NCBI GenBank assembly: GCA_002215675.1
Contig: NGFH01000004.1
Coordinates: 248,001 to 312,000, forward strand
DNA length: 64,000 bases
Direction: 5' to 3'
Source of the DNA: Bacteroidetes bacterium 2013_40CM_41_45
Lineage (GTDB): Bacteria; Bacteroidota; Bacteroidia; AKYH767-A; 2013-40CM-41-45
The translations under genes were made by a program, and so were the position numbers. The notes below the pieces were generated by a model, which did not search any database, had not been told where the DNA came from, and was given only the letters and a program-made list of their open reading frames with translations. Position 1 is the first letter of the stretch; each line of letters opens with the position of its first letter. This document shows, piece by piece, positions 24,328 through 28,939 of the stretch.

Positions 24328-26775
24328 TTAGTTATTTAAAGTTTTTTCTCCTTTCAATTTTCGAATTCTCTTTCGTATGGTGAGCAGCATGCCAAAGATA
24401 AATATAAGACATCCTGTCCATAAAATATTAATACCCGGGAAAATAATTGCTTTCATGATGATAAATTCTTTCTTATTCGATTTTTTTTCACTCACTACGA
24501 TTTCCATTTTTTCTTTTTCAGGGTCAATCCGGGTGAAGCCGAATTTCAAACCAAGCGTATCAAGTGTTGCATCTTTAGAAAACGAAACCATGTCTTTAAT
24601 CACAAACACCGGCTCGGCCTGGTAATGGTTGAAACCTATATCGGTAATGCTAAGCTGCGCACCTACAGCGAGATCTTTTTCGCCCAAGCCCAGTGACGCT
24701 TTGTCCATATTTTTATTGAGCCGTGTAAGTACAATTAAACTGTTGCTTGCTGTAATTGTATCGCCAACGCCTATCACGTGAGTTGACGGCTTCCCATATT
24801 CATCTTCTTTACCTGCAGCAGGATTGTTATTTAAATCATCCAGCGCCGCATACGTGATATGTGTGTAAATATCCCTCGACAAAAAACGTTTTGTTGATGG
24901 TTCTGAAACATTTCCCATTCTTTCATTGAGCTGAACCACCGGGTGCAATTCAAATTGCTTTTCTTTTTTTCCTGTTGCGGGATTCTCCTTAAAGTATTCA
25001 ATCGTATAGGTCAGGTTCACTCCTGCTCGCGATTTGCCTTTGTAACAAACAAAATATTCTCCCATAGGAAGCGTATCGCTGTGAAGCTCTATCAATATAT
25101 TTTCGCGATTGGGAAAATCCTTACCGAGGTTAACCCCCTTTACATTTTGAGAGATAATTTGCTTTTGAGAATTTGAAATCAGTGCACCCATAAGAATGAG
25201 CCCGATACCGATATGCGCGGTTGAAGCGCCCGCTTTCTGTACATTTCCTTTCAGCACGCGGAAAAGATAATCGGCATTGGCGGTAATGGCGAATATGGTT
25301 GCAAAAAGCATGACTACATAATACACGTTTATTGCCCTCATAAAAAGTGTACCTACTGCGGCTGCAACAATAGAAATCACCAGCGAGGGAATAATTTTTT
25401 TATAGAAATCATTCATGCCGGTCTTTTTAAATTTCAGGAACTGCCCCACGGCAATCAGAGTAGAGATAATAATGGCAAGCGGAATCTGCCATGCATTATA
25501 ATGTGAAATATTTTCTGCTGGCGGTGCAAGCTTTGCAGAAAAAATTTTATTTATGACAGGAATGGAAGTAGTAAACGTGATTTGCAGCGAGCTGATGACA
25601 AGCACCAGCGCCCCGATGTACATCCAGAATTCGCGCGATGTGATGCTGTCGTCTTCGCGGGGAGAAATTATTTTTTTACGCTCGCGGATGAGAAGAAACC
25701 CCGCAAGCAAAACAAAAAATGCCATGTAAATAACCAACTGGCCCGACATGCCCAGGTCGGTAAAGGCATGAACAGAAGTATCGCCCAGGATTCCGCTTCG
25801 CGTGAGAAACGTGGAGTAAAGCACCAGCAGAAAAGTCATTATAGTGAGAAAGAAAACCGAGAATAGCGAATGCCCTTTGTGATTGTAAATTATCATGACA
25901 TGCGCTGCAGCCACCAGTGTAATCCAGGGAACGAGCGAAGCATTTTCTACCGGGTCCCATGCCCAGAAGCCCCCAAAGCTTAGCGATTCATAAGCCCATG
26001 CAGCGCCCATCAGTATTCCTGTTCCCAAAACCATTACTGAAAAAAATGTCCACGGCATAGAGGGTTTTATCCATTCAGTAGTTTTCCTGGTTATCAATCC
26101 ACCAAGTGCATACGCGAACGGAACCACCGTTGAGGCAAAACCAAGAAACAATATCGGTGGGTGGATTACCATCCAGTAATTCTGCAACAGTGGATTCAAT
26201 CCCCGCCCGTCATTGATTTTAGAGAGATAATCGGGCAGGGCGACAAACGGAAGACTGGCAAAATCAGGATGCTCGCGCAGGAGAATAAAAGGGTTTGTTC
26301 CTATTTTGTAATCAAAAACATATACACCCAATATCATGGAGCACAGGAATACCTGCACCGACATGATGATCGCCATTACTGGGGTACCCCACGTATTTTG
26401 TTTCCGGATGAGAAAGAAAGATATGATGATATCCCAGAAAATCCAGAGAAGAAAACTTCCTTCCTGCCCCTCCCAGAAACAGGCAAGGATGTAGCGCATG
26501 GGCATGATGGTATTGGAATGCTGCCATACATAATAGTATTCGAAGTAATGATTGAAGATGAGATAAAACATGATTCCGACAACAGAAAAAATCGAAACGG
26601 CATGAATGAAAAAAGCAATTTTGCCTGTGCGTTGCCAGCGCGCTTCTCCGGGGTTTTTTATCCCGATAAAATATGAAATGCAACTCAGCAGCGCACCAGT
26701 AAATGCAAGAACTATAAATAAGTTTCCGGCCTTGCCCCATGCAAGATGTTCGCCTAAGTATTGAATGTTGTTCAT
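24328..26775 (-). CDS. ccmF: Cytochrome c heme lyase CcmF/CcsA family protein
   Basis: An 815-residue polytopic membrane protein of the heme handling protein superfamily. The tryptophan-rich WWD signature appears as GGFWAWDPVENASLVPW, with external histidines in the flanking segments, and about 15 hydrophobic segments cover the protein. The C-terminal third has a large periplasmic domain as in CcmF, ending with one more membrane segment. CcmF takes heme from CcmE and attaches it to apocytochrome c. The neighbouring ccmE 116 bp upstream supports this role. Other ccm genes (ccmABCD, ccmH) are not in the window. The gap to ccmE is filled by a 70-bp heptad repeat. Confidence 0.93.
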   Translation of the reverse strand: MNNIQYLGEHLAWGKAGNLFIVLAFTGALLSCISYFIGIKNPGEARWQRTGKIAFFIHAVSIFSVVGIMFYLIFNHYFEYYYVWQHSNTIMPMRYILACFWEGQEGSFLLWIFWDIIISFFLIRKQNTWGTPVMAIIMSVQVFLCSMILGVYVFDYKIGTNPFILLREHPDFASLPFVALPDYLSKINDGRGLNPLLQNYWMVIHPPILFLGFASTVVPFAYALGGLITRKTTEWIKPSMPWTFFSVMVLGTGILMGAAWAYESLSFGGFWAWDPVENASLVPWITLVAAAHVMIIYNHKGHSLFSVFFLTIMTFLLVLYSTFLTRSGILGDTSVHAFTDLGMSGQLVIYMAFFVLLAGFLLIRERKKIISPREDDSITSREFWMYIGALVLVISSLQITFTTSIPVINKIFSAKLAPPAENISHYNAWQIPLAIIISTLIAVGQFLKFKKTGMNDFYKKIIPSLVISIVAAAVGTLFMRAINVYYVVMLFATIFAITANADYLFRVLKGNVQKAGASTAHIGIGLILMGALISNSQKQIISQNVKGVNLGKDFPNRENILIELHSDTLPMGEYFVCYKGKSRAGVNLTYTIEYFKENPATGKKEKQFELHPVVQLNERMGNVSEPSTKRFLSRDIYTHITYAALDDLNNNPAAGKEDEYGKPSTHVIGVGDTITASNSLIVLTRLNKNMDKASLGLGEKDLAVGAQLSITDIGFNHYQAEPVFVIKDMVSFSKDATLDTLGLKFGFTRIDPEKEKMEIVVSEKKSNKKEFIIMKAIIFPGINILWTGCLIFIFGMLLTIRKRIRKLKGEKTLNN

Positions 26776-26890: not shown

Positions 26891-27292
26891 TTAACTGGGC
26901 TTAATCGCCTTCGCAGCGTCCTGCGGGTTGTTGTATTTGGATGGGCATTTCATCAAAATGCTTGAAGCGTGAAACGCATCGCCATTCATTTTGCCAATGA
27001 CTACAATCTGCTCGCTTTTTTCAAAGTCCTGGGGAGGGGCGGCATTAAGCAACACCTTTCTTTCAGCGCCCTCACTGTCCTTCATATAAAAAGTAAAAAG
27101 GTTTGGATTAATATGCGGGTCGTAAATTCTTTCCTTGTCATGGTTCAGTTTGCCGGCTACATGAAACACCTTTCCCTCCTTGGATTGAGCCACAGAAAAC
27201 GTTGCATACGTGCTCGATTCGGCAACCGTGGTAAGTATGGCTGCCACAGCCGCAGCAATTACAATAAGTGCAACAATATGTGATTTTTTCAT
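26891..27292 (-). CDS. ccmE: Cytochrome c maturation protein CcmE, Cys-type (CxxxY)
   Basis: A 133-residue periplasmic heme chaperone with one N-terminal membrane anchor (about 5-23) and an OB-fold body. In most CcmE proteins heme is held covalently by the histidine of an HxxxY motif. Here the motif reads CPSKY, Cys116 and Tyr120, within LMKCPSKYNN. Cys-type CcmE is known from Desulfovibrio and archaea and is linked to a different ccm gene set. The codon is clearly TGC, not a histidine codon. It is followed by ccmF in the same direction and has its own promoter word upstream, so the pair likely forms a short unit inside the longer run. Confidence 0.93.
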   Translation of the reverse strand: MKKSHIVALIVIAAAVAAILTTVAESSTYATFSVAQSKEGKVFHVAGKLNHDKERIYDPHINPNLFTFYMKDSEGAERKVLLNAAPPQDFEKSEQIVVIGKMNGDAFHASSILMKCPSKYNNPQDAAKAIKPS

Positions 27293-27364: not shown

Positions 27365-27846
27365 GTCTGAACCAGGATTCAGGTGATTACAGGATTAGCC
27401 GGATTAAATTTTGGGTTAATCAACCGCTTAAACTGCAAACTCTTTGCGCCAAAATTCAGGAGCAAGCCTATCTCAAGATTATACGCTTCAAGATAATTTT
27501 TGGCTTGCGCCATGTGCACATCTTCTAATTGGACAAGTGCTTTCAGCTCGACACTTATTTTTTCTTCGACAAGGAAATCAGCCCTACGTGTACCGATATT
27601 TTTTCCCTTGTAGTAAATGGGCATTTCATATTCGCGCTCAAAAGAAATATGCTGTTCGTACATTTCTATTTCCAGCGCCCGTTGATAGATGACTTCCTGG
27701 AACCCATTTCCCAACTGACTATGAACTTCCATTGCACATCCAATAATTTTTCCGGTGAGCTCAGAATACTTCATTGTCTCAATCTGCGTCATGAGTTTAT
27801 TTTTTAATCCCGCGAATCTACAAATCCGCTAAATCATGGTTCAGAC
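27365..27846. mobile_element. 482-bp element: GxxExxY gene within 44-bp inverted repeats
   Basis: The left end (27365-27408) and the inverse of the right end (27846-27803) both start GTCTGAACCA and end GGATTAAA. They are 44 bp each with about 34 identities and no gaps. Inside each arm GATT recurs at steps of 9, 8 and 9 bases. The arms enclose one gene of the GxxExxY family. The right end overlaps the stop codon of mlaD (TAG then TCTGAACC), so the element abuts mlaD exactly. No transposase and no clear target duplication were found. Confidence 0.75.
27379..27792 (-). CDS. GxxExxY family protein (PDDEXK-type nuclease fold)
   Basis: A 137-residue protein with the family signature G30-x2-E33-x2-Y36 inside LGNGFQEVIYQRAL. 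A PDDEXK-like core reads ADFLV (Asp72) followed by VELKA (Glu82-x-Lys84), the arrangement of divalent-metal nucleases. The role of this widespread family is not established. The last residues (NPANPVIT and the stop) are encoded by the inverted repeat that bounds the element, and the N-terminus starts just inside the other repeat. It sits between mlaD and ccmE and probably interrupts an otherwise continuous operon. A second start at Met7 is possible. Confidence 0.88.
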   Translation of the reverse strand: MTQIETMKYSELTGKIIGCAMEVHSQLGNGFQEVIYQRALEIEMYEQHISFEREYEMPIYYKGKNIGTRRADFLVEEKISVELKALVQLEDVHMAQAKNYLEAYNLEIGLLLNFGAKSLQFKRLINPKFNPANPVIT

Positions 27847-28841: not shown

Positions 28842-28850
28842 GGGTTGCAG

Positions 28851-28939
28851 TTATAAGTTATACGTTATAAGTTATACGAAAAAATGTACATGCATAAAAG
28901 CATATAACATATGACATATAACGTATAACGTATAACGTC
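28851..28939. repeat. Inverted heptad array between amidase and mlaD
   Basis: The left arm is four exact heptamers (TTATAAG, TTATACG, TTATAAG, TTATACG). A core of about 22 nt rich in ATG/CAT follows. The right arm is five or more inverse heptamers (CATATAA, CATATGA, CATATAA, CGTATAA, CGTATAA). The arms could pair into a long hairpin. No reading frame lies in the core. The array occupies most of the 112-bp gap. Confidence 0.85.

Follow-up and report, generated by a model that had tools for sequence, protein, structure and literature searches.

The closest described relatives of the machinery considered here are the cytochrome c maturation systems of Desulfovibrio and of archaea in which CcmE carries a cysteine. 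A Desulfovibrio ccm operon without CcmH and CcmG is reported to make holocytochrome c in E. coli, and the cysteine-bearing CcmE of D. desulfuricans to bind heme covalently (PMC3601427); in Methanosarcina, the cysteine of the CxxxY motif is reported as required for heme attachment (PMC9084895). For D. vulgaris CcmE, ferric heme bound non-covalently through the cysteine has been described; the same paper reports a coordination provided by the conserved Tyr134 (PMC3884852). A 2025 review names either histidine or cysteine as the conserved residue used by CcmE (PMC12285233), and a Sediminibacterium CcmC was used among the System I sequences of another 2025 paper (PMC12077264).

Here, a ccmE gene of Bacteroidetes bacterium 2013_40CM_41_45 is compared with these systems. 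"The window" denotes the whole stretch of DNA that was analysed, 64,000 nucleotides in length.

Results

The ccmE gene and its heme-binding motif

Two features define the gene:

26891..27292, minus strand: ccmE, 133 aa, with a membrane helix at the N-terminus (residues 3-23 of the model) and a soluble domain of OB fold
26933..26947, minus strand: C116-P-S-K-Y120 motif where E. coli CcmE has its heme-binding HxxxY, assigned from codons and alignments

The open reading frame was identified as CcmE by Pfam PF03100 (42.6 bits; cut-off 24.6) and is the only copy of this family in its genome. The codons read K115 AAA, C116 TGC (26947-26945), P117 CCA, S118 TCC, K119 AAA and Y120 TAC (26935-26933), and those from C116 to Y120 are contained in the interval 26931-26951, where the original prediction had placed a CcmE with cysteine substituted for the heme-binding histidine. 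An alignment of 18 sequences shows no variation in the columns of C, P, S, K and Y. A profile of these 18 relatives aligned C116 opposite the histidine of 'LAKHDENY' in E. coli apo-CcmE (1SR3), i.e. at the position of the heme-binding His130. The exchange of histidine for cysteine is thus borne out by the codons, the PF03100 match, the alignment to 1SR3 and the invariant columns.

Solved CcmE structures were recovered with the same profile, the best PDB match being D. vulgaris CcmE (2KCT, E 2.1e-7). The AlphaFold model calculated from the 18-sequence alignment (mean pLDDT 86.4) shows an N-terminal helix (3-23) and five strands forming an OB-type barrel, with the CPSKY motif predicted directly past the last strand (E106-115). 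Foldseek with this model returned the CcmE structures 1lm0, 1j6q and 2kct at rmsd 2.2-2.4 (2.2 for 2kct, D. vulgaris CcmE) as well as the CcmABCDE complex 8ce8. Other OB-fold proteins are also among the matches, a chain of replication protein A being ranked first.

CcmF and the remaining ccm genes

On either side of ccmE the window contains:

24328..26775, minus strand: ccmF, 815-aa heme lyase (PF01578, PF16327)
27379-27792, minus strand: gene of the GxxExxY family (TIGR04256 139 bits, PF13366 132 bits), upstream of ccmE

The ccmF gene lies 115 bp downstream of ccmE. Its product carries the heme-handling (WWD) motif GGFWAWDPVENAS, and His205, His292, His336 and His521 align opposite His173, His261, His303 and His491 of E. 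coli CcmF, which we take to be the functional histidines of that protein. The genes ccmB and ccmC and a CcmD_alt gene, which follows ccmC, are clustered at C2:399-400 kb. Of the ccm cluster originally predicted at this locus, the adjoining pair ccmE-ccmF therefore stands, whereas the remaining ccm genes are found elsewhere in the genome.

The corresponding scores are 34.1 bits for CcmB (PF03379), 62.1 bits for CcmC (PF01578) and 84.8 bits for CcmD_alt (PF20077); on the NCBIfam model, CcmB scores weakly (14.9 vs 156.2 bits). CcmC has the WWD motif TWGAWWVNDAKL and a histidine opposite E. coli His60. E. coli CcmC His184 falls opposite Asn173 in the alignment; as there is a histidine a few residues off, the correspondence at this position is uncertain. 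Since a single CcmF and a single CcmC are all that PF01578 finds in this genome, no System II CcsA was seen in that search. The genome also has five Cytochrome_CBB3 matches, four of them over the cut-off, in open reading frames with CXXCH motifs; the pathway therefore has substrates.

The search with PF03100 covered the genomes of 41 relatives and a draw of 296 genomes from across the phylum, both sets including the genome under study. A CcmE match was obtained in 38 of the 41 relatives and in 193 of the 296, amounting to 230 genomes with this genome counted once. CcmB was found in the same number of genomes of the phylum draw (193/296; 190 over the cut-off). An open reading frame beside ccmB in several phylum genomes (L269, L271, L275, L278, L282) presumably resembles DNA polymerase III delta-prime.

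The GxxExxY gene upstream of ccmE lies between 44-nt inverted repeats, 77% complementary, which delimit a unit at 27365-27846. Both outer ends of the unit bear GTCTGAACCANGATT (chance expectation 0.01 per window). With these repeats and ends, the unit resembles a small element that is, or once was, mobile. At 28850-28936, between an MlaD-domain gene and the next gene, there are short repeats of the GTTATAAGTTATAC type, both direct and inverted.

Search for CcmH

No match to PF03918 (CcmH) was found in the genome, which is 99.46% complete, by a search that works in four control genomes. This agrees with the original prediction, which had linked cysteine-type CcmE with a missing CcmH. In the phylum draw, PF03918 matched in 7 of 296 genomes at E<=0.001 and in 2 of 296 over the cut-off. 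That CcmH is present in the phylum but was missed was considered and rejected: all seven matches are partial, and the three of the seven that were inspected (L127, L131 and, within the L246 stretch, the L125 match) proved to be zinc-ribbon proteins containing CxCGxC repeats. Among the 80 loci from named genomes, which were taken with 8 kb flanks, many of them cut by contig ends, E. coli CcmH had no match, E. coli CcmG matched in the flanks of one, and ccmB-C-D-E-F form one cluster in 31.

The inspected zinc-ribbon proteins (L246 4505-5296, minus strand; L127; L131) are membrane proteins with two CxCGxC...CxC repeats and a weak PF03918 match. The one in L246 is encoded near another zinc-ribbon protein and a large efflux pump gene, presumably of the RND type (metal-efflux type), and no ccm genes are among the open reading frames listed for the 10 kb of this stretch.

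A candidate for CcmA

No protein of the genome exceeded the cut-off of the curated CcmA model TIGR01189 (best score 109 bits vs 131.6). Across the phylum draw, with about 10 ABC candidates scored per genome, just 4 of 296 genomes, from a single genus, had a protein above the cut-off of this model. CcmA-like proteins from four phylum genomes of one genus that pass the curated model served as references for the ABC proteins of nine stretches of the genome, out of 35 matches listed. Within this set, a 213-aa ABC protein (L287 2380-3021, minus strand; C2 about 674.4-675.0 kb; 91 bits on TIGR01189) matched the references at 37% identity and 140 bits, the next best scoring 93.6; in the comparison with E. 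coli CcmA itself, it is not the top-ranked protein. Its gene lies beside one that we take to be lpxA, in what resembles an lpxC/fabZ-lpxA gene row.

Among the 31 named loci holding ccmB, none showed an ABC ATPase with a match to E. coli CcmA. A system lacking CcmA was nevertheless rejected, as one phylum genome (L283) encodes a CcmA-like protein in the vicinity of ccmB and the 213-aa protein beside the presumed lpxA is its probable counterpart here. Judged from these similarities, the latter is probably a divergent CcmA, unlinked to the other ccm genes.

Proposed route of heme

We consider it very probable that this CcmE is the heme chaperone of a cysteine-type cytochrome c maturation system (System I*), its binding of heme being suggested by homology. 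CcmA, CcmB and CcmC with the alternative CcmD would load heme onto Cys116 of the membrane-anchored CcmE on the periplasmic side, CcmC/CcmD giving the heme to the cysteine. The bond formed would probably be a thioether to a heme vinyl group. The axial ligand is likely to be Tyr120; a coordination by the conserved Tyr134 is reported (PMC3884852). CcmE would then pass the heme to CcmF, which, with no help from CcmH, would attach it to CXXCH cytochromes.

Given the non-covalent binding reported for D. vulgaris CcmE (PMC3884852), the bond may not be covalent in every case. In the same manner the present CcmE might hold heme non-covalently, with the thiolate of the cysteine or the tyrosine as ligand, and shuttle it to CcmF, so that Cys116 would form no covalent bond. 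Such a shuttle would avoid the difficulty, raised in PMC3601427, that a thioether is hard to release, but it is at odds with the covalent heme on D. desulfuricans CcmE (PMC3601427) and with the cysteine needed for heme attachment in Methanosarcina (PMC9084895). We regard it as unlikely and retain covalent loading of Cys116 as the preferred reading.

Much less credible is the view that the open reading frame encodes an OB-fold paralogue without a role in cytochrome c maturation. Non-canonical copies do occur: two phylum genomes have a second, short CcmE-like protein of 112-113 aa (L157/L244 3740-4078, plus strand; L158/L245 5202-5543, minus strand) that stops immediately short of the heme-binding motif, its gene lying directly upstream of one presumed to be uvrB-like. 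The CcmE described here, however, is the sole copy in its genome, adjoins ccmF and has an invariant motif, and its relatives are located within the ccmB-C-D-E-F cluster in the 31 named loci mentioned above. A paralogue is therefore very improbable, and the assignment as heme chaperone is kept.

Cysteine is the residue found across the phylum

The motif was read in 164 of the 230 genomes with CcmE. These reads comprise 144 with one locus per genome (the repeats L061 and L138 being dropped) and 20 covering families not yet included; the genomes were taken from the best-scoring loci, with others added so as to include the class and the remaining families, and the sample is not random. Cysteine was present in 164 of 164, as CPSKY or CPSRY, and histidine in none of them. 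Several sets of these reads used a profile that ends before the motif, so that cysteine was not required for a match. A scan of named genomes, with loci from Chitinophaga, Pedobacter, Mucilaginibacter, Lewinella and Phaeodactylibacter strains among its 80, gave cysteine in 80 of 80; its pattern contains CPSKY and hence does not discriminate cysteine from histidine.

Because the same residue occurs in every one of the 164 genomes, a sequencing or assembly error at the TGC codon, or a mutation confined to this genome, is ruled out for practical purposes. On these sequences, the cysteine-type CcmE is the norm within Bacteroidota, and the gene is real and ordinary for its phylum. The survey of the phylum for cysteine or histidine and for CcmH, with which the original prediction was to be checked, has thus returned cysteine in every genome read and CcmH over the cut-off in two of 296 genomes. 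The suggestion of that prediction that the cysteine is notable within Bacteroidota is not upheld, cysteine being the sole type seen. It had also named, as a finding that would refute it, that all Bacteroidota CcmE are of this type and already described as such. The first part agrees with the reads, and the variant system as such is described (PMC3601427, PMC9084895), whereas a statement that Bacteroidota CcmE is of the cysteine type was not found in the literature searched; as most subscription papers lie outside that literature, this is weak evidence.

Discussion

The most useful result is the phylum-wide uniformity of cysteine, coupled with an almost complete lack of CcmH. This ccmE itself is routine, a further member of a variant already known. 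The survey places the cytochrome c machinery of Bacteroidota in the cysteine-type variant, and textbook descriptions based on His130 and CcmH of E. coli should not be carried over to it. Many cultured species, among them named Chitinophaga, Pedobacter and Mucilaginibacter strains, are available for testing how a heme-cysteine bond is formed and released without CcmH.

With the System I of E. coli (CcmABCDEFGH) the present system shares the OB fold of CcmE and the motifs and histidines of CcmC and CcmF. It differs in having Cys116 for His130, no CcmH match and no single ccmA-H operon; where classical System I combines an HxxxY CcmE with CcmH, this genome has the CPSKY motif and no PF03918 match.

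The comparison with Desulfovibrio and archaea made in the original prediction holds, CxxxY being accompanied by the absence of CcmH as in both (PMC3601427, PMC9084895). Methanosarcina acetivorans likewise needs CxxxY for heme attachment and is reported to have no CcmH (PMC9084895). It has two CcmF, in contrast to the one CcmF and one CcmC found here with PF01578, and archaea are without CcmD, whereas a CcmD_alt gene follows ccmC in this genome. The System I* of Desulfovibrio is similar in its CxxxY CcmE and lack of CcmH; here, in contrast, the ccm genes are scattered over three places, CcmD belongs to the CcmD_alt family (PF20077), and the probable CcmA is divergent and unlinked. It is likely, though less firmly so than the role of this one CcmE, that cysteine-type CcmE without CcmH is the rule for the whole phylum. 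Bacteroidota would then represent a third branch of System I*, and a very widespread one, in which CcmD is of the alternative kind, CcmA is divergent and unlinked, and CcmF alone completes heme attachment.
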